The notes under the pieces: generated by a model
The model's database searches: none
What the model was told of the DNA's origin: nothing
Seen by the model: only the letters and a program-made list of their open reading frames with translations
Assembly: GCF_004360225.1 (NCBI RefSeq)
Contig: NZ_SNUA01000012.1
Location: 81,859-145,858, forward strand
Reading direction: 5' to 3'
Length of the DNA: 64,000 bases
Source of the DNA: Alcanivorax sp. 24
Lineage (GTDB): Bacteria > Pseudomonadota > Gammaproteobacteria > Pseudomonadales > Alcanivoracaceae
Program-made: the position numbers and the translations under genes
Shown: positions 15,167 through 62,720 of the stretch, one piece after another
How positions within the stretch are numbered: the stretch's first letter is position 1
Layout: each line of letters opens with the position of its first letter

Positions 15167-15348
15167 GCTTGCACGCAACACGCAACACGCAACACGCAAC
15201 ACGCAACACGCAACACGCAACACGCAACACGCAACAAATAGCGTTGCCAGGCCTCACTACCTGTCAACCCCGCTGAGATCAACATCAGCGCGACCGACAG
15301 GTCGTCCCCTCATTTGCGTGCCAGCGTGCCGGCGTGTTGCGTGCTAGC
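15167..15348. repeat. Heptamer-bracketed element: (ACGCAAC)x9 with inverted arm
   Basis: Nine perfect ACGCAAC copies occupy 15173-15235. The inverted arm at 15315-15349 is a degenerate series of GCGTGNN units. The outer 17 bp (15167-15183 and 15332-15348) form an inverted repeat with one mismatch, consensus GCTnnCACGCAACACGC. The spacer (15236-15314) includes a short imperfect palindrome around CTGAGATCAACATCAGCG. It lies between the divergent phosphatase and enoyl-CoA hydratase genes, so it occupies their shared upstream region. Confidence 0.9.
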
Positions 15349-16220: not shown

Positions 16221-16289
16221 TTCGCGGCCAAGGCCGCTTCCCACAGCGACTCCGTAGTGCCCTCTGTGGGAAGCGGCCTTGGCCGCGAA
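16221..16289. repeat. BIME: inverted pair of REP palindromes
   Basis: A perfect 26-bp inverted repeat, 16221-16246 versus 16264-16289, with a 17-bp loop. Each arm contains GCGGCCTTGGCCGC flanked by GTGGGAA and GAA. It is the same REP type that makes up half of each unit of the 22718-24853 array. It sits between the convergent ends of the enoyl-CoA hydratase and TetR genes and could serve as a bidirectional terminator or transcript stabiliser. Confidence 0.9.
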
Positions 16290-20100: not shown

Positions 20101-20284
20101 CATAATTCGCTTACACGCAACACGCTGGCACGCCTGCATGCCAATTCGCTGGCAAGCCAGCTTCCCACGGAAGGGGTTACAACGCTGCTGTGGGAAGCTG
20201 CCTTGGCAGCGAATACTGTGCCCATTCATGTCTGCAAGACTACGAGGTTTTGCGTGTTGCGTGTAGGCGTGCCAGCGAATTATG
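20101..20284. repeat. Heptamer-bracketed element with internal BIME
   Basis: The outer 10 bp (20101-20110 and 20275-20284) are perfect inverted repeats. Just inside, GCTTACACGCAACACGC (20109-20125) pairs with 20252-20268 with one mismatch. The spacer contains an imperfect inverted pair of REP palindromes, 20144-20168 and 20190-20214. The element sits inside the beta-oxidation operon, between the MaoC and SDR genes, where a stable RNA fold could separate the two halves of the transcript. Confidence 0.9.
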
Positions 20285-21296: not shown

Positions 21297-22499
21297 ATGA
21301 GAGAAGCTGTCATTGTTTCCACCGCCCGCACCCCCATCGGCAAAGCCTACCGGGGTGCCTTCAACGATACCCAGGGTCAGGCTCTGGGTGCCCACGCCAT
21401 CAAGCACGCCGTGGAGCGCGCCAAGATCGATCCGGAAACCATCCAGGACGTGATCATGGGCGCCGCCCTGCAGCAAGGCAGCACCGGCGGTAACGTGGCT
21501 CGCCAGGCCGCTCTGCGCGCTGGCCTGCCGACCTCCGTTTCCGCCATGACCATGGACCGTCAGTGTTCCTCCGGCCTGATGTCCATCGCCACCGCCGCCA
21601 AGCAGATCATGGTGGATAACATGGACGTGGCCGTGGCTGGTGGCCTGGAATCCATCTCCCTGGTGCAGAACGACAAGCAGAACCGCTACCGCGCCGCGGA
21701 TCCATGGTTGAAGGAACACCGCCCGGACATCTACATGTCCATGCTGGAAACCGCTGAGATCGTCGCCGACCGCTACAACGTTTCCCGGGAAGCTCAGGAC
21801 GAATACGCCTATCAGTCCCAGATGCGTACCGCCGCCGCCCAGGAAGCCGGCAAGTTCGACGATGAAATCGTGCCCATGACCACCATCATGAAGGTCATGA
21901 ACAAGGAGACCAAAGAGGTTTCCGATCAGGAAGTGACCCTGTCCAAGGACGAGGGCAACCGTCCGCAAACCAAACTGGAAGACCTGCAGAAACTGCAGCC
22001 GGTGTTCAAGGATGGCCAGCAGGTGAGCGAAGGCCGCTTCATCACCGCCGGTAACGCCTCCCAACTGTCCGACGGCGCCAGCGCCAGCGTGCTGATGGAA
22101 GCCAAGGAAGCCGAGCGTCTGGGTCTGGCCCCGCTGGGTGCCTACCGTGGCATGGCCGTGGCCGGCTGCGATCCGAACGAAATGGGCATTGGTCCGGTGT
22201 TCGCCGTTCCCAAGCTGCTGCAACGCTTCGGTCTGAAAATCGATGACATCGGCCTGTGGGAACTGAACGAAGCGTTCGCCAGCCAGTGTCTGTACTGCCG
22301 TGACGAGCTGGGCATCGACCCGGAAAAATACAACGTCAACGGCGGCGCCATCTCCATCGGCCACCCCTACGGCATGTCCGGCGCCCGCATGGTCGGCCAC
22401 GCGCTGATCGAAGGTAAGCGTCGCGGCGCCAAGTACGTGGTGGTGAGCATGTGCATCGGCGGCGGCATGGGTGGCGCCGGTCTGTTCGAGGTATTCTGA
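21297..22499 (+). CDS. Acetyl-CoA C-acyltransferase (thiolase)
   Basis: A 400-residue thiolase with acyl-accepting Cys90 ([11 protein letters not shown]), His356 in [10 protein letters not shown] and the second Cys386 in [10 protein letters not shown]. It cleaves 3-ketoacyl-CoA with CoA to release acetyl-CoA or propionyl-CoA, completing the cycle encoded by the operon. It is the last gene; a GC-rich hairpin lies 22 bp after the stop. Length and motifs fit degradative thiolases rather than condensing enzymes. Confidence 0.95.
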
Positions 22500-22520
22500 T
22501 CCCATCCCCTCGATAACTCT

Positions 22521-22556
22521 CCGGCGGCCCTCCCCGGCCGCCGGATTCCCGGTTTT
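22521..22556 (+). terminator. Probable intrinsic terminator of the beta-oxidation operon
   Basis: A 9-bp perfect stem (CCGGCGGCC, loop CTCCCC, GGCCGCCGG; 22521-22544) ending in a short TTTT at 22553. It is placed just after the thiolase stop. The T-tract is weak and displaced, so termination efficiency is uncertain. Confidence 0.6.
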
Positions 22557-22717
22557 ACCGCACCAGCCTGGACGGCCTCCCAACCGGCCGTCCGCGTTGG
22601 CCGTGCCCCTACCCTCTCTGGGTACCCTTCCCCGGGCACGACCACATCATGAGGGCCGCTGGTGCGGTTTTTTTCGCCACCATTACTTTCTCCAGATAGA
22701 ATCTCCCACGGAGTAGC

Positions 22718-24853
22718 GTGGGAAGCGGTCTTGGCCGCGAATGCCCCCGGACCGTTGCCCATTCGCTTGCAAGCACGCTCCCACAGCGGCTTCGTAGCCC
22801 ATTGCCGTGGGAAGCGGCCTTGGCCGCGAATGCCCCCGAACCGTTGCCCATTCGCTTGCAAGCGCGCTCCCACAGCGGCTTCGTCGCCCATTGCCGTGGG
22901 AAGCGGCCTTGGCCGCGAATGCCCCCGGACCGTTGCCCATTCGCTTGCAAGCACGCTCCCACAGCGGCTTCGTAGCCCATTGCCGTGGGAAGCGGCCTTG
23001 GCCGCGAATACCCCCGGACCGTTGCTCACTCGCTTGCAAGCACGCTCCCACAGCGGCTTCGTCGCCCATTGCCGTGGGAAGCGGCCTTGGCCGCGAATGC
23101 CCCCGGACCGTTGCCCATTCGCTTGCAAGCACGCTCCCACAGAAGCTTCGTAGCCTGTTGCCGTGGGAAGCGGCCTTGGCCGCGAATACCCCTGGACCGT
23201 TGCCCATTCGCTTGCAAGCACGCTCCCACAGCGGCTTCGTAGCCCATTGCCGTGGGAAGCGGCCTTGGCCGCGAATACCCCCGGACCGTTGCCCATTCGC
23301 TTGCAAGCACGCTCCCACAGCGGCTTCGTAGCCTGTTGCCGTGGGAAGCGGTCTTGGCCGCGAATGCCCCCGGACCGTTGCCCATTCGCTTGCAAGCACG
23401 CTCCCACAGCGGCTTCGTCGCCCATTGCCGTGGGAAGCGGCCTTGGCCGCGAATACCCCCGGACCGTTGCCCATTCGCTTGCAAGCGCGCTCCCACAGCG
23501 GCTTCGTAGCCCATTGCCGTGGGAAGCGGCCTTGGCCGCGAATGCCCCCGGACCGTTGCCCATTCGCTTGCAAGCACGCTCCCACAGCGGCTTCGTAGCC
23601 CATTGCCGTGGGAAGCGGCCTTGGCCGCGAATGCCCCCGAACCGTTGCCCATTCGCTTGCAAGCGCGCTCCCACAGCGGCTTCGTCGCCCATTGCCGTGG
23701 GAAGCGGCCTTGGCCGCGAATGCCCCCGAACCGTTGCCCATTCGCTTGCAAGCGCGCTCCCACAGCGGCTTCGTCGCCCATTGCCGTGGGAAGCGGCCTT
23801 GGCCGCGAATGCCCCCGAACCGTTGCCCATTCGCTTGCAAGCGCGCTCCCACAGCGGCTTCGTCGCCCATTGCCGTGGGAAGCGGCCTTGGCCGCGAATG
23901 CCCCCGAACCGTTGCCCATTCGCTTGCAAGCGCGCTCCCACAGCGGCTTCGTCGCCCATTGCCGTGGGAAGCGGCCTTGGCCGCGAATGCCCCCGAACCG
24001 TTGCCCATTCGCTTGCAAGCGCGCTCCCACAGCGGCTTCGTCGCCCATTGCCGTGGGAAGCGGCCTTGGCCGCGAATGCCCCCGGACCGTTGCCCATTCG
24101 CTTGCAAGCACGCTCCCACAGCGGCTTCGTAGCCCATTGCCGTGGGAAGCGGCCTTGGCCGCGAATACCCCCGGACCGTTGCTCACTCGCTTGCAAGCAC
24201 GCTCCCACAGCGGCTTCGTCGCCCATTGCCGTGGGAAGCGGCCTTGGCCGCGAATGCCCCCGGACCGTTGCCCATTCGCTTGCAAGCACGCTCCCACAGA
24301 AGCTTCGTAGCCTGTTGCCGTGGGAAGCGGCCTTGGCCGCGAATACCCCTGGACCGTTGCCCATTCGCTTGCAAGCACGCTCCCACAGCGGCTTCGTAGC
24401 CCATTGCCGTGGGAAGCGGCCTTGGCCGCGAATACCCCCGGACCGTTGCCCATTCGCTTGCAAGCACGCTCCCACAGCGGCTTCGTAGCCTGTTGCCGTG
24501 GGAAGCGGTCTTGGCCGCGAATGCCCCCGGACCGTTGCCCATTCGCTTGCAAGCACGCTCCCACAGCGGCTTCGTCGCCCATTGCCGTGGGAAGCGGCCT
24601 TGGCCGCGAATACCCCCGGACCGTTGCCCATTCGCTTGCAAGCGCGCTCCCACAGCGGCTTCGTAGCCCATTGCCGTGGGAAGCGGCCTTGGCCGCGAAT
24701 GCCCCCGGACCGTTGCCCATTCGCTTGCAAGCACGCTCCCACAGCGGCTTCGTAGCCCATTGCCGTGGGAAGCGGCCTTGGCCGCGAATGCCCCCGAACC
24801 GTTGCCCATTCGCTTGCAAGCGCGCTCCCACAGCGGCTTCGTAGCGTGATCCG
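22718..24853. repeat. Tandem array of 24 x 89-bp REP/BIME units
   Basis: Twenty-four consecutive units with exact 89-bp period (24 x 89 = 2136 bp). Each unit carries two palindromes: GCGGCCTTGGCCGC, and GCTTGCAAGC within a GCGA/GCTCCCA frame. Its outer GTGGGAAGC/GCTCCCAC parts are inverted, so a unit equals a BIME. Units differ at a few diagnostic sites (tAcccc/tGcccc, ggacc/gaacc, gcAcgc/gcGcgc, cgtAgcc/cgtCgcc, a CTGTTG variant). The variant order shows units 3-10 repeated as units 16-23 (offset 1157 bp, 13 units), with one unit type five-fold in a row (units 11-15). It lies between convergent operons. No stop codon occurs in several frames on both strands, creating long spurious reading frames. 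Confidence 0.97.
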
Positions 24854-24904
24854 TGGGAACCAGCCTGCTGGCAATGGCGTTTTCAGCCCGTCAGGAAGGC
24901 CGCA

Positions 24905-26251
24905 TCACGTGGTCGCGAGCGCCGGCCGCGCCACAATCCTGGTCTTCACCACCGCCATGAGAATAAGACCGGCCACCAGCCAGAAGCCCGCCACTAGGTA
25001 GAGCGAGGCGTTGGGCGTCCCCGTGGCGGTGTTGACGAAAGACACCACCGAGGGCATGACCGCGGGTCCCAGATTGCCCAGGCTGCTGACCAGCGCGATA
25101 CCTCCGGCCGCGATCTTCTTGGGAATGACCTCACTGGTGGCGGCAAAGAACAGCGGCGTCGCTGACGACTGGCCAACCGTGAGAATAACCAGGCCCAGAA
25201 GCGACAACACCAGCGTGCCTTGAGTGAAGACGAGAACGACCGCACCGATCGCACACAATGAGCAGCAGAACATGAAATGCCGGCGCCGCTCGTTATGCCT
25301 GTCGGAGCTGCGCCCGATGAATACCATGGCGAAGACAGTAATCGCCGGGCCGATGGACGAAAGCAAACCGACGGTGAAAACATCCTTCACGCCCCAGCTT
25401 TTGATCAGTGTCGGCGCCCAGAACACCATCACGTAAGTGGCGCCCAGAACCAAAAAATACACAAGCGACATCACCCAGACCTGGGGGCTGGCCAGCAGTG
25501 TGCCAAATGAACCGTGCGAGGCTCCCTGGCCGGCCTGTGCCTCGTCATCGTCAAGCAGTTGGCGCAAACGGGACTTTTCATCAGCGGACAGCCAGTTGGC
25601 GTCTTCCGGTTTGTCCTTGAGATAAAAGAAAGCAAAAACGCCGAGAAATGTGGCGGGCAGGCCTTGCATGACGAACAGCCACTGCCAACCCCGATACCCC
25701 ATCACACCATCCATGTACTTCATGATGGCACCCGACATGGGGCCCGCGAGCAGATAGGCGATAGTGGCACCGGTCATGAACAGGGCGATCGCCTTGTCAC
25801 GCCGCGGCCCCGGATACCAATAGGTCAGATACAGAATGATGCCGGGAAAGAAACCGGCCTCGAAGACCCCCAGCAAGAAGCGCAGGACATAGAACACCGT
25901 GGTGGTTTGCACAAACATCATGGCCGAAGCGACCAGGCCCCAGCAGAACATAATACGCAGCAGGGTTTTACGCGCGCCGATCCGCTCGAGAATCAGGTTG
26001 CTGGGCACCTCGAACAGAAAGTAACCGACAAAGAAGACACCCGCGCCAAAGGCGTAGGCGGCATCACTGAATGGCAGCGACTCCTTCATCTGTAACTGTG
26101 CAAAACCGATATTAACGCGGTCGAGGAAGGCGATGATGTAACAGACGATCAACAGTGGCAGCAGACGCCAACTGATTTTGGAAAACAACGCCTCATCCCG
26201 TGGGCTGTACTGAACGGTGGGCGCCTTGTGATCCGGAGCATGGTGAGCCAT
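24905..26251 (-). CDS. MFS transporter, anion:cation symporter (ACS)-type
   Basis: A 448-residue, 12-helix major facilitator. The first helix SWRLLPLLIVCYIIAFLDR with the DRVNIGFAQ motif is typical of the ACS family (phthalate, tartrate and other organic-anion symporters), as are VPSNLILERIGARKTL and FFPGIILYLTYWYPGPRRDKA. It imports an organic anion with protons. I chose ATG 26251 (GGGAGA upstream) over an extension that would nearly reach the ligase stop. It lies 56 bp downstream of the acyl-CoA ligase, so uptake and CoA activation of the same acid is the natural inference. Confidence 0.9.
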   Translation of the reverse strand: MAHHAPDHKAPTVQYSPRDEALFSKISWRLLPLLIVCYIIAFLDRVNIGFAQLQMKESLPFSDAAYAFGAGVFFVGYFLFEVPSNLILERIGARKTLLRIMFCWGLVASAMMFVQTTTVFYVLRFLLGVFEAGFFPGIILYLTYWYPGPRRDKAIALFMTGATIAYLLAGPMSGAIMKYMDGVMGYRGWQWLFVMQGLPATFLGVFAFFYLKDKPEDANWLSADEKSRLRQLLDDDEAQAGQGASHGSFGTLLASPQVWVMSLVYFLVLGATYVMVFWAPTLIKSWGVKDVFTVGLLSSIGPAITVFAMVFIGRSSDRHNERRRHFMFCCSLCAIGAVVLVFTQGTLVLSLLGLVILTVGQSSATPLFFAATSEVIPKKIAAGGIALVSSLGNLGPAVMPSVVSFVNTATGTPNASLYLVAGFWLVAGLILMAVVKTRIVARPALATT

Positions 26252-26307
26252 GACAGGTCTCCCTTTTTGTTCTTTCGTTTTATCGTTGTTGGGCTGCTCG
26301 ACAGGCG

Positions 26308-28008
26308 TCACACGGCGACACGGCGCCGGGCGTCTTCATCAACCAGATCTTTCTTCGACAGCTTGCCCACGGCGGTCTTGGGCAGTGCCTCACGGATCTC
26401 CAGGCCGTGCACCATCTCGTGCTTGCCCAGCTTGTCCTTGAGGAAAACCTGCAGCTGTTCCAGCGTGAAGGGACTGGCGCCGTGCTTGAGCGTGACAAAA
26501 GCCTTGGGAGACTGTCCCCGGTACTCATCCGGCACGCCGATAACAGCCACTTCCGCAACGGCGGGGTGTTGGTAGATAGCTTCTTCAAGCACACGCGGAT
26601 AGACGTTGTAGCCACTGCACAACAGCATGTCCTTGCAGCGATCAACGATGAAAACGAAGCCGTCCTCGTCCATGTAGCCGATGTCGCCGGTGCGGAAGAA
26701 GCCGTCGAAGGTAGTGCTCTCGACGGTGGCCTCCGGTTTGTTCCAGTAGCCCTTCATTACATTGGGCCCCTGGATGCAGATCTCGCCTTTCTCACCCAGC
26801 GGCACGTAGCGCGTCGGGTCGTCCAGATCGAGCATTTTGATGGTCACGCCAGGATGTGGAATGCCGCAGGAACCGGCCTTACGCTTGCCTGGAATGGGCG
26901 AGAAAGTCCCGGTCGGCGAGGTTTCGGTCATACCCCAGCCTTCCGCCAGCCGGGTGCCGGTAATGGCGTTGAAGCGATTTCCCACCTCCACTGGCAACGG
27001 CGCGCCACCCGAATTGCACATCTTGAGCGTACGCAGGTCATAGCGGGCGGCATCGGGATCGTTGATGACGGCGGTGAACATGGTCGGCACGCCACAGAAA
27101 AAAGTGAGCTTCTTCTCGGTGATATCATGCAGCGCCGTCTTCGGATCGAAGCGCACATGCTGCACGATTTCCGCCGCGAGGCGCACGGCCAGCAGCAGGT
27201 TGACGGTCAGCGCGTAGATATGGAAAGGCGGCAGCACCGCGAGCACGCGTTCCTTGCCCATCTCGAACATCGGCGGCGTGCCCAGTCCGGTGGTGACCAC
27301 CTGCTCCACCGCCGAGGACAAATTACCGTGTGTCAGCATCGCCCCCTTGGGCAGCCCCGTGGTACCCCCCGTGTACTGCAGAATGGCGAGAGTCTCGCGC
27401 GGATCGTCGATGCCGTGGGCCCGGTACCAGCCATCGTTATCGACCAGCTCGGCGAAGCACATATGCCGCCCATCGGCAGGAATAGCCACGGTCTCTCCCC
27501 TGGCGGCCATCGCCGCCGCCACCTGCTCCGGGGCACCCGCCATTTCCGCCAGATTGCCGACAATCAACGTTTTCAGCCGTGTCGTGCCCAGCATGGCGGC
27601 CATCTGCGGGTATAGAGCAGCCATATCCAGCGTAATGAGAAAATCGGTCTGGCTGTCCTCGATCTTGTGCTTGAGCACATTGGCGGCGTCGAGCGGCGAA
27701 TAGTTCACCACCGTGCCGCCGGCTTGCAGTACGCCAAAAAGGCAGACCAGGTAATGTGGCGTGTTGGGCAGGAACAGGCCGACATGAACGCCCGGCCCGA
27801 CACCGAGCTTCTGCAGCCCGGCGGCGACCCGATCGGTCAACGCGCCGAGCTCGCGGTAGTTCATGTTTCGCCCCATAAAGTCGATCGCGGGTTGCTCCGG
27901 GTGATTAGCCACCGCATCAGCCAGGATCCGCTGTACCGCTTTGGGGGTGGTTTCGGCGTCCCAACGCACGCCCGGGGGGTAGGACTTCAGCCAGGGTTGG
28001 TTATTCAT
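26308..28008 (-). CDS. AMP-forming acyl-CoA ligase
   Basis: A 566-residue ANL-superfamily ligase of full length. Visible: the phosphate-binding loop YTGGTTGLPKGAMLTH (about residues 213-228), the ATP motif GWGMTETSPTGTFSP, the hinge-preceding GFFRTGDIGYMDEDG, the hinge DRCKD and the C-terminal catalytic Lys region PKTAVGKLSKKDL. It activates a carboxylic acid to acyl-AMP and then acyl-CoA. The domain pattern fits long-chain fatty acid or dicarboxylate ligases; exact chain length is not predictable. It is followed by an organic-anion transporter in the same operon. Confidence 0.93.
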   Translation of the reverse strand: MNNQPWLKSYPPGVRWDAETTPKAVQRILADAVANHPEQPAIDFMGRNMNYRELGALTDRVAAGLQKLGVGPGVHVGLFLPNTPHYLVCLFGVLQAGGTVVNYSPLDAANVLKHKIEDSQTDFLITLDMAALYPQMAAMLGTTRLKTLIVGNLAEMAGAPEQVAAAMAARGETVAIPADGRHMCFAELVDNDGWYRAHGIDDPRETLAILQYTGGTTGLPKGAMLTHGNLSSAVEQVVTTGLGTPPMFEMGKERVLAVLPPFHIYALTVNLLLAVRLAAEIVQHVRFDPKTALHDITEKKLTFFCGVPTMFTAVINDPDAARYDLRTLKMCNSGGAPLPVEVGNRFNAITGTRLAEGWGMTETSPTGTFSPIPGKRKAGSCGIPHPGVTIKMLDLDDPTRYVPLGEKGEICIQGPNVMKGYWNKPEATVESTTFDGFFRTGDIGYMDEDGFVFIVDRCKDMLLCSGYNVYPRVLEEAIYQHPAVAEVAVIGVPDEYRGQSPKAFVTLKHGASPFTLEQLQVFLKDKLGKHEMVHGLEIREALPKTAVGKLSKKDLVDEDARRRVAV

Positions 28009-47312: not shown

Positions 47313-47516
47313 AGTTGACAGTTGATAGTGGACAGTTGACAGCGAAAGAAAAAAGTCGATCCATGAATTCTCTGTGGGAAGCTTGCTTGCAAGCGAATGG
47401 AGCTCACCTAGGCGTTTGTAATATTCGCTTGCAAGCAAGCTCCCACAGCGGCTAAAGATTAGCTGCTTTTTATTTTTCGTCTTTCGCTGTCAACTGTCCA
47501 CTATCAACTGTCAACT
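47313..47516. repeat. Nested palindrome: 36-bp heptamer TIRs around a BIME
   Basis: Outer arms 47313-47348 and 47481-47516 are a perfect 36-bp inverted repeat; the first part is four near-identical heptamers (AGTTGAC, AGTTGAT, AGTGGAC, AGTTGAC). Inside, REP arms at 47372-47398 and 47428-47453 (GTGGGAAGCTTGCTTGCAAGC type) are inverted with one extra base. No reading frame is enclosed. It lies between the convergent abgT-like and queF genes. Confidence 0.95.
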
Positions 47517-60865: not shown

Positions 60866-60935
60866 ATTCGCTGCCCAGGCAGCTTCCCACAGCGGCTCCG
60901 TGGCACTTCCGTGGGAAGCTGCCTGGGCAGCGAAT
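60866..60935. repeat. BIME: perfect 25-bp inverted REP pair
   Basis: 60866-60890 and 60911-60935 are perfectly inverted with a 20-bp loop. Each contains the palindrome GCTGCCCAGGCAGC within the GTGGGAA/GCGAAT frame. It lies between the RimK-like gene's 3' end and the DUF2157 start. Confidence 0.92.
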
Positions 60936-60973: not shown

Positions 60974-62461
60974 TCAAAGCGGCAGCCCCAGCCGCCGCGC
61001 CTCCATGCGGCGCAGGAATTCCAGCATCACCTGCCGGTACAGATCCTCACCCAGCCACAGGTCCTCGACACCGGCGTCGATGTTGGGATTGTCGTTCACC
61101 TCCATCACCACCACCTGATCGCCGGATTGCTTCAGGTCCACGCCGTACAACCCATTACCCATCAGCCGGGCGGCTTTCAGCGCCACTCTCAGCACCTTCG
61201 GCGGCACTTCGCGGATCGGTACCGTGCGCGCGTTGCCGGAGGCGGTTTTGCCGCTGTCCTTGTGATGATAAATCTGCCAATGCCCCTTGCTCATGAAGTA
61301 CTGGCAGGCAAACAACGGCCGGTTGTTGAGCACGCCAATACGCCAGTCGTAATCGGTGTACATAAAAGCCTGGGCCAGCACCACGGCGGATTGCTTCAAG
61401 TAGCCGTGCAGCGCGGTTGCCAGCGTCTCGCGGTCCTCCACCTTGCTGATGCCCCGGGAAAAACTGCCGTCCGGGATCTTCAGCACCATCGGCAAGCCCA
61501 ATTCCCCGATCAGGCCGTCCACCTGCTCCGCGCTGGCGCTGAACACAAAGGCGGTGGGCGGCACCGGCACGCCATTGGATTGCATCAGCTCGGCCAGATA
61601 AATCTTGTTGGTGCAGCGCAGGATCGAGCGCGGATCGTCGATCACCACCAGGCCTTCCTGCTCAGCCTTGCGGGCGAACTGATAGGTGTGATGATCGATG
61701 GCGGTGGTTTCGCGAATGAACAGGCCATCGTATTCGCCCAGGCGGGCATAGGCGTCCCGGCCGACCTGCCCCACCTTGATGCCGAGTTGGCGGCCGGCCT
61801 GCCTGAAGCGCTTCAACGCGGTGCGATTGCTTGGCGGCATGGCCTCCTGCTCGTTCACCAGCATGGCCAGATCGTAGCGCTCGCCACGGCGCCGGCGTGG
61901 GCCGCGCCAGACTCTCGCGTTGAACTGCTCCAGGGCCCGAGCGAACTGGTCCTCCTCGGCGCCCTTCACCTGTTTCAGACTCGGCGTTCTGATCGCCTCC
62001 AGGACCCACTGGTCGCGACGCCGGAACGACACCCGCAGAATCGGGCATGGCAACTGATCAAAGATCTGCCGCGCCAGTTCCGTCAGCCCTTCCTGTTCGG
62101 TTTGCCCGAAGTAGATATTGAACGTCACCTTGGTGGCATCGCCGCCCTGCTTCTTCATCGCCTTGTCCAGCGCCGATTCGAAGCGCTCGAAGTGCAGGCC
62201 GTACAACGCCTTGTGGCTGAGATCATTGACGGTGCGCACCGAGGGCATGACACGTTGACCACGGGCTTCCGCCAGCAACGAACAGTAGTAGCCGGGGGAC
62301 AGGTATTTATAACTGCGGCACAGATTGATCACCTGCACTTTCTTGTCGGTGCAGACCGGCTCGGTGGCTTGCAGGTAATCACGGGCGGACAGCAGATTAC
62401 GGGCGGGATAGTACGCCGCCCAATCCGCCGGATCGTCCACCAGGATAATGACTTGGCTCAT
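60974..62461 (-). CDS. RLAN-domain RimK-type ATP-grasp ligase
   Basis: A 495-residue protein: an N-terminal RLAN-type region (about 1-190; VIILVDDPADWAAYYPARNLLSARDYL, with LCRSYKYLSPGYYCSLLAEARGQRVMPS) and a C-terminal RimK ATP-grasp (about 285-490; VPVPPTAFVFSAS, LPMVLKIPDGSFSRGISKVED, and the late metal-binding VVVMEVNDNPNIDAG). RimK-type enzymes add Glu or other amino acids to peptide or cofactor C-termini; this fused class is common in gammaproteobacteria but uncharacterised. ATG 62461 is the likely start. The frame stays open upstream through a 27-copy heptamer array beginning 26 bp away, which is odd and possibly regulatory. Confidence 0.9.
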   Translation of the reverse strand: MSQVIILVDDPADWAAYYPARNLLSARDYLQATEPVCTDKKVQVINLCRSYKYLSPGYYCSLLAEARGQRVMPSVRTVNDLSHKALYGLHFERFESALDKAMKKQGGDATKVTFNIYFGQTEQEGLTELARQIFDQLPCPILRVSFRRRDQWVLEAIRTPSLKQVKGAEEDQFARALEQFNARVWRGPRRRRGERYDLAMLVNEQEAMPPSNRTALKRFRQAGRQLGIKVGQVGRDAYARLGEYDGLFIRETTAIDHHTYQFARKAEQEGLVVIDDPRSILRCTNKIYLAELMQSNGVPVPPTAFVFSASAEQVDGLIGELGLPMVLKIPDGSFSRGISKVEDRETLATALHGYLKQSAVVLAQAFMYTDYDWRIGVLNNRPLFACQYFMSKGHWQIYHHKDSGKTASGNARTVPIREVPPKVLRVALKAARLMGNGLYGVDLKQSGDQVVVMEVNDNPNIDAGVEDLWLGEDLYRQVMLEFLRRMEARRLGLPL

Positions 62462-62486
62462 CGGGGTTCCATTGAGAAGGCTAAGG

Positions 62487-62675
62487 ACGCCGGACGCCGG
62501 ACGCCGGACGCCGGACGCCGAACGCCGAACGCCGAACGCCGAACGCCGAACGCCGAACGCCGAACGCCGAACGCCGAACGCCGAACGCCGAACGCCGAAC
62601 GCCGAACGCCGAACGCCGAACGCCGAACGCCGAACGCCGAACGCCGAACGCCGAACGCCGAACGCCGAACGCCGA
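62487..62675. repeat. 27-copy heptamer array, ACGCCGG x4 then ACGCCGA x23
   Basis: Perfect 7-bp units over 189 bp, beginning 26 bp upstream of the RimK-like start codon, so in its leader. The unit is the same as at 1261-1323 (ACGCCGG), with a homogenised G-to-A variant making up the distal 23 copies. On the minus strand the array lies in frame with the ligase and would encode a GVRRSAF heptapeptide repeat if translated. Confidence 0.97.
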
Positions 62676-62720
62676 AAGATGAAAAACCGGGCGCGCCGAC
62701 TTGGCAAGCAATAAAAACGC

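Follow-up and report, generated by a model that had tools for sequence, protein, structure and literature searches.

A tandem array of 24 REPINs (BIMEs) separates a thiolase gene from an MFS transporter gene in the window, the stretch of 64,000 nucleotides of contig NZ_SNUA01000012.1 from Alcanivorax sp. 24 that was analyzed. The feature is a real, well-described tandem REPIN array, and what is unusual is its size and, more so, the genome-wide abundance of such arrays, tandem REPIN clusters being already known. The array was most probably (about 0.72) grown by recombination between its units at an ancestral REP site, in a lineage with a burst of arrays. The MFS protein of the window shares 90 to 92% identity with its counterparts in Alloalcanivorax xenomutans JC109 and A. 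balearicus MACL04, and the genome (G000) belongs to the genus Alloalcanivorax.

Each unit comprises REP-a (24 bp, columns 1 to 24), a 20-bp spacer, inverted REP-b (23 bp, columns 45 to 67), and a 22-bp linker, the consensus being GTGGGAAGCGGCCTTGGCCGCGAA, spacer, GTGGGAGCGTGCTTGCAAGCGAA inverted, and linker. Both elements show the hallmarks of a REP, a GTGG-type tag at the 5' end and an imperfect palindrome after it. The unit is a REPIN because two inverted REPs with their GTGG tags outside are what defines one, and the identification as a tandem BIME in the sequence-only reading was correct. The element is dispersed at high copy in the genome, with 140 matches at up to 2 mismatches and none for the reversed control; among the matches listed, 24 made up the window array and the remainder were spread across many contigs.

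TRF returned a period of 89 bp, 23.9 copies, 96% matches, and 0% indels, in agreement with the 24 units of 89 bp counted earlier, a copy number that rests on the assembly, a draft of 99 contigs (4.76 Mb). In this assembled sequence, unit 2 shows no differences from units 11 to 15, and units 16 to 23 repeat units 3 to 10 exactly at an offset of 13 units, as had been claimed. The longest exact direct repeat of the array measures 889 bp (9.99 periods, offset 1157 = 13 x 89) and spans units 2 to 10 plus most of 11 against units 15 to 23 plus most of 24 (Table 1); the duplication is thus present, although its description as nine units with units 3 to 10 repeated slightly understated its extent. Across units 1 to 23, 12 of 89 columns are variable and nine haplotypes occur. 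A unit order at odds with a block duplication, the outcome named beforehand as telling against it, was not seen: eight distinct unit types recur in order, and none of 20,000 order shuffles of units 1 to 23 reached eight (maximum, 5). The unit order is also compatible with the proposed two or more expansion events. The mean divergence within units 1 to 11 is 3.7 of 89 bases (4.1%) versus 0 of 889 between the blocks (95% upper bound, 0.34%), so that the block would be at least about 12 times younger than the unit divergence if no gene conversion erased differences. The four-gamete test was failed by 6 of 66 pairs of variable columns, which fits exchange between units, and repeated mutation could also yield such failures.

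Table 1. Coordinates of the window array, its internal blocks, and its flanks
Feature	Position	Strand	Basis
Thiolase gene, left neighbor, 3' end toward array	21297..22499	+	ORF; Pfam Thiolase_N, Thiolase_C
Inverted repeat with long loop (arms 22557-22567, 22658-22668), then T run	22557..22674	+	Read from sequence
REP remnant CTCCCAC, directly left of unit 1	22703..22709	-	Sequence; aligns with REP end of G001 and G012
Tandem array of 24 REPIN units, period 89	22717..24845	.	TRF and unit comparison
Exact 889-bp higher-order block, copy 1	22797..23685	+	Unit comparison
Five identical units in a row (11-15), type as unit 2	23607..24051	+	Unit comparison
Exact 889-bp higher-order block, copy 2	23954..24842	+	Unit comparison
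Degenerate REP 3' of last unit	24853..24874	+	Read from sequence
MFS transporter gene, 3' end toward array	24905..26311	-	ORF; Pfam MFS_1

Other repeats were recorded elsewhere in the window. The heptamer ACGCCGA is present in 27 copies at 62487-62676, where an ORF on the minus strand (60974-62707) has its 5' end, and copy changes could shift the frame because 7 is not a multiple of 3; TRF found further heptamer arrays at 1259-1323 and 15172-15236. Single tail-to-tail REP pairs, their tags inside, lie at 16222-16288, 20146-20212, and 60868-60933, and a pair with tags outside at 47374-47446.

The array is placed between convergent genes, as previously described, with both the thiolase and MFS genes ending toward it. 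The inverted repeat beyond the thiolase gene is, from its structure, probably the terminator of the thiolase operon; it is kept in two relatives, G001 and G012, and was absent from the output of a scan for short-loop terminators. The sole Rfam match in 22400-25100, isrK at 22572-22674 (17.6 bits against 50, E 0.95), is located outside the array, over this probable terminator, and was discarded as chance. A sigma-70-like promoter match on the plus strand (22674-22702; shuffle mean, 0.3) directly precedes the array.

The thiolase end was present in all 13 genus genomes searched, G000 included, and the MFS gene follows it in 2 of the 12 other loci, namely, G001, whose locus sequence agrees with that of A. 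balearicus, and G012, whose sequence agrees with that of A. xenomutans. The remaining 10 had no MFS match, and no REP pattern was found in these loci, which extend about 1.5 kb past the thiolase match. The thiolase-MFS site holds one REPIN in G001, a REP end only in G012, and the array in G000. Because two relatives hold one REPIN or a REP remnant there, the ancestor shared with these near relatives would already have had a REP-bearing site. Such presence and absence at orthologous sites is compatible with mobilization of REPINs by a RAYT. With up to 1 mismatch, the REP pattern gave 128 matches in G000, 297 in G001, 156 in G012, 42 in G002, 26 in G011, 20 in G009, 19 in G008, and 0 in the other six genus genomes, the reversed controls giving 0 throughout.

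The search for a RAYT gene that the sequence-only reading had suggested was successful, and the gene is bordered by REPs of the same kind. Three Y1_Tnp matches were obtained in the genome, the third bordering the family cut-off. The RAYT, a protein of 151 aa encoded on the same contig as the window (C12:2811-3263, corresponding to L001:1426-1881 on the minus strand), matched Pfam Y1_Tnp at 1.4e-9 and, in the PDB, 4er8 'TnpArep' at E 6.8e-5, the sole distinct solved sequence at E up to 0.001. An alignment of 7 sequences shows residues H66 and H68 (HxH) and the C-terminal Y126 without exception in all 7; together with the Pfam and PDB matches, this makes the protein a Y1 HUH transposase with the HxH motif and tyrosine of the RAYT (TnpA-REP) class, and Y126 the putative catalytic tyrosine. 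On one side of the gene is a REP pair, and on the opposite side a REPIN array with a 93-bp period and 8.8 copies. The other two Y1_Tnp proteins (231 and 243 aa; L002 and L003) have no adjoining tandem REPs, with 0 and 1 REP-pattern matches nearby, respectively. Just upstream of the second Y1_Tnp gene, a 77-bp repeat in 2.3 exact copies (L002:1131-1309) has no REP-pattern match. Within the genus, RAYT homologs with 53 to 67% identity were found in G001, G002, G006, G008, G009, and G011 and with 46 to 49% identity in G003, G004, G005, and G010, and none was found in G007 and G012. Close homologs and REPs mostly co-occur, the exceptions being G006 (61% homolog, 0 matching REPs) and G012 (REPs, no RAYT match).

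Triple REPs in tandem were counted in relatives with two patterns, both of which are restricted to REPs of this class and this spacing; collapsed arrays may also be hidden in draft assemblies. The pattern ending GCTCCCAC gave 36 matches in G000, 2 in G001, 1 in G025, 3 in G040, and 0 in the rest of the 46 family genomes (controls, 0); 6 of 390 genomes drawn from the order had any, the best besides G000 having 3, with one control match (G294). The pattern ending TTCCCAC, searched across the family alone, gave 287 matches in G000, 4 in G001, and 0 in the other 44 genomes, with one match of the reversed control (G002). The GCTCCCAC ending alone badly undercounts arrays, TTCCCAC yielding eight times more. 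G002 and G009 are single contigs, yet showed no TTCCCAC match. G000 is full of tandem REPIN arrays, and by these two patterns the 45 other members of the family have almost none. The earlier claim that REP arrays this long are rare applies to the relatives searched (family and order sample) but not to G000, where tandem REPIN arrays are common.

At least 27 array loci were found in G000 (21 among the 100 of 287 TTCCCAC matches listed and 6 from the GCTCCCAC search), the contig-end arrays of C25 and C26 being counted as one. The whole of contig C12 (153,868 bp) contains 9 arrays that occupy 9,484 bp (6.2%), and 8 of them, with 7 to 15 copies each, lie within positions 1-35468 (L129-L130) at the RAYT-bearing contig end. 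The window array was the longest among 22 own arrays examined, the second having 15.2 copies, in a nonrandom set in which 13 were chosen as search matches and C12 because it carries both the RAYT gene and the window. In eight other arrays (C1, C6, C9, C11, C17, and three on C12), exact repeats measuring 242 to 418 bp were present at an offset of at least two periods. Single-linkage grouping (85% identity across 90% of the unit, spacers included), a procedure that may chain, joined 18 of the 22 own arrays and one G001 array in one group, a pattern that suggests spreading of entire modules in addition to local growth. The window unit belongs to one of the four own arrays that stayed ungrouped; it aligned with C12:1 at 73 of 91 positions and with C11:108727 at 72 of 87, and pieces of contig C99 aligned with it at about 85% across 152 bp.

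These counts leave room for a tentative broader picture, in which tandem REPIN arrays would have broken out recently throughout the genome of this species. Multi-unit modules with both REPs and both spacers would spread from locus to locus and afterwards lengthen through recombination, so that multiplication would concern arrays rather than single REPINs. Since REPs are dispersed but arrays almost lacking in near relatives whose RAYT is similar, a restraint on array growth may have been lost or RAYT activity gained. Loss of mismatch repair was rejected as the cause of the burst because all 13 of the 13 genus genomes have a MutS match above the cut-off. Absence of the hairpin nuclease SbcD was likewise rejected as a specific cause; no SbcD match was found in G000, but this is a shared background, SbcD being above the family cut-off in 2 of 13 genus genomes and having any match in 5 of 13.

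From the unit types, their order, and the exact block seen in the assembly, we infer an 11-unit ancestor, an unequal exchange, and an amplification of the unit type shared by unit 2 and units 11 to 15 (type B). The RAYT transposase of the genome may have seeded the site, where a REPIN with its linker would have been amplified head to tail to about 11 units (1, B, 3-10, and a terminal B), which then diverged and swapped variants. A later unequal exchange between the last unit (B) and unit 2 of the same type would have added nine units, and multiplication of one B unit from one to five would complete the array (11 + 9 + 4 = 24). Growth would have proceeded via homologous recombination or slippage.

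This course of events presupposes that the repeat was assembled correctly. The first 127-mer of contig C12 is found again 455 bases further along, whereas its first 128-mer is not, the end of C25 behaves likewise, and C26 starts with a 219-bp repeat (92 + 127). Among 10 exact-period pieces of contig C99, three equal the period plus 127 (periods 91, 92, and 121), three the period plus 128, perhaps with one chance base extra, and four are off the pattern (90, 90, 109, and 114); the k=127 end signature was not seen at contig C18, which has an array near its end. C99 itself (L118) is a 7.3-kb contig resembling chained short pieces with many tandem REPIN units, apparently collapsed arrays. The signatures suggest a short-read de Bruijn assembly with k = 127 in which several arrays were cut or collapsed. 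That the assembler walked loops in the repeat graph and produced a wrong copy number or block duplication is a serious possibility, although well below an even chance. All 127-mers of 22201-25400 fit a 12-unit sequence without the block, and the 889-bp repeat is about twice as long as the longest exact repeat (418 bp) of the other 21 sampled arrays. On the other hand, real 133-mers would demand at least 22 units (as would lengths of 150 to 213), lengths of 250 to 301 would demand 23 and those from 350 would demand 24, and the junction 1-B-3, which forces at least 22 units, is close to the unique left flank. The duplication holds if junctions of about 133 bp were joined right, for which 150-base reads would suffice, and it is probably real in the genome. 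The exact number of 24 requires spanning information of about 350 bp and is provisional, more copies being possible. It is barely conceivable that the array is instead a gene for a repetitive protein, for which open frames of up to 835 aa, the longest being a minus-strand ORF across the array, could speak, but the 89-bp period is not divisible by 3, the scarcity of stop codons in the unit leaves long frames open on both strands, and variation tends to fall outside the REPs (3 of 47 columns variable within them versus 9 of 42 outside; P = 0.06, not significant).

A RAYT-driven rolling-circle amplification, in which arrays are made in one step, inserted as ready tandem modules, and only later edited by recombination, is the less probable origin, but one to be considered. 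A rolling-circle origin has been put forward for BIMEs in the available text of PMC2817692, arrays at many loci have units and spacers in common, and the arrays of C12 are concentrated in 35.5 kb beside its RAYT-bearing end. The repetition of eight different unit types in order requires a second, recombination-like step even so, and G012 has 156 REP matches but no RAYT match. Retention of the array for a host function, as a transcription barrier between the convergent genes or as a binding site for gyrase or nucleoid proteins, is improbable. The convergent neighbors would suit a barrier, as would a two-unit RNA read from the MFS side, which folds at -91.9 kcal/mol (z -3.35, unmatched by any of 200 shuffles), and a terminator-like site on the minus strand (22724-22703) that straddles the left end of the array. 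However, the region contains three terminator-like sites against a shuffle mean of 2.8, the other two being inside the MFS gene, the thiolase side has its own terminator-like structure that is kept in relatives without the array, and the thiolase-MFS site of those relatives has one REPIN or none. As single-stranded DNA, a single REPIN has only a moderate folding advantage over shuffles (z -1.56, with 14 of 200 folding as well). Gene orientation was mixed around six of the 22 own arrays, those examined with both flanks visible, three being convergent (window, C9, and C13:4395), two co-directional (the RAYT array and C13:115287), and one divergent (C17); three further arrays are cut by contig ends, and flanking ORFs were judged by length and Pfam, L123 left and L124 right being without Pfam match. 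The divergent array (L125:3264-3900) lies between epimerase-like and AMP-binding genes and could affect promoters. Gyrase binding is a feature of BIME-2 of Escherichia coli according to PMC2817692. The suggested IHF binding was not borne out, as the window array contained 0 consensus-like sites with up to 2 mismatches, against a mean of 5.9 in 100 base shuffles, and its inter-REP segments lack the consensus of IHF-binding BIMEs. A host function is possible but unneeded to explain the window array, one of many in the genome, and growth by recombination at an ancestral REP site is the preferred explanation.

Literature searches found nothing on Alcanivorax with 'REP sequences' or RAYT, on Alloalcanivorax with 'tandem repeat', or on REP with tandem arrays and unequal crossing, and the matches for Alcanivorax with 'repetitive extragenic palindromic' were unrelated by title. 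The window array resembles BIME-2 of E. coli in its inverted REPs alternating in tandem; E. coli arrays are not known to exceed about a dozen REPs. The formation of BIME and REPIN clusters, by transposase, recombination, or slippage, is debated in the accessible portions of PMC2817692 and PMC3116915. Dozens of arrays with readable unit order, beside relatives that carry a transposase of the same family but few arrays or none, would make cluster formation testable.

Among other known systems, the BIMEs of Stenotrophomonas, as presented in the excerpted text of PMC2817692, are likewise head-to-tail modules of two inverted REPs and two spacers linked to RAYTs; their inter-REP segments are mutually unrelated, whereas 18 of the 22 arrays sampled here were grouped and share spacers. 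According to the same source, REPs of Thauera and of marine gammaproteobacteria are crowded around rayt genes. The SMAG arrays (PMC2613905, partial text) are also tandem modules of inverted REPs, and their length differs between Stenotrophomonas strains; the window array could similarly serve as a length marker for strain typing. The REP sequences here differ from those of the Stenotrophomonas BIMEs and SMAG. Clusters of GTAG-family REPs, including the Thauera arrays, are similarly large and tandem with flanking DNA, but occur in other taxa, and the available text of PMC3733652 makes no mention of Alcanivorax. In Pseudomonas fluorescens SBW25, PMC3116915 describes REPINs in tandem along with flanking sequence and clusters beside RAYT genes, as found here, with 16 ordered REPIN clusters, the largest of which has four REPINs and one REP over 700 bp. 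The present genome differs from SBW25 in that the window array runs to 24 assembled units in 2.1 kb, with a higher-order duplication visible in it, and in that array loci number at least 27.
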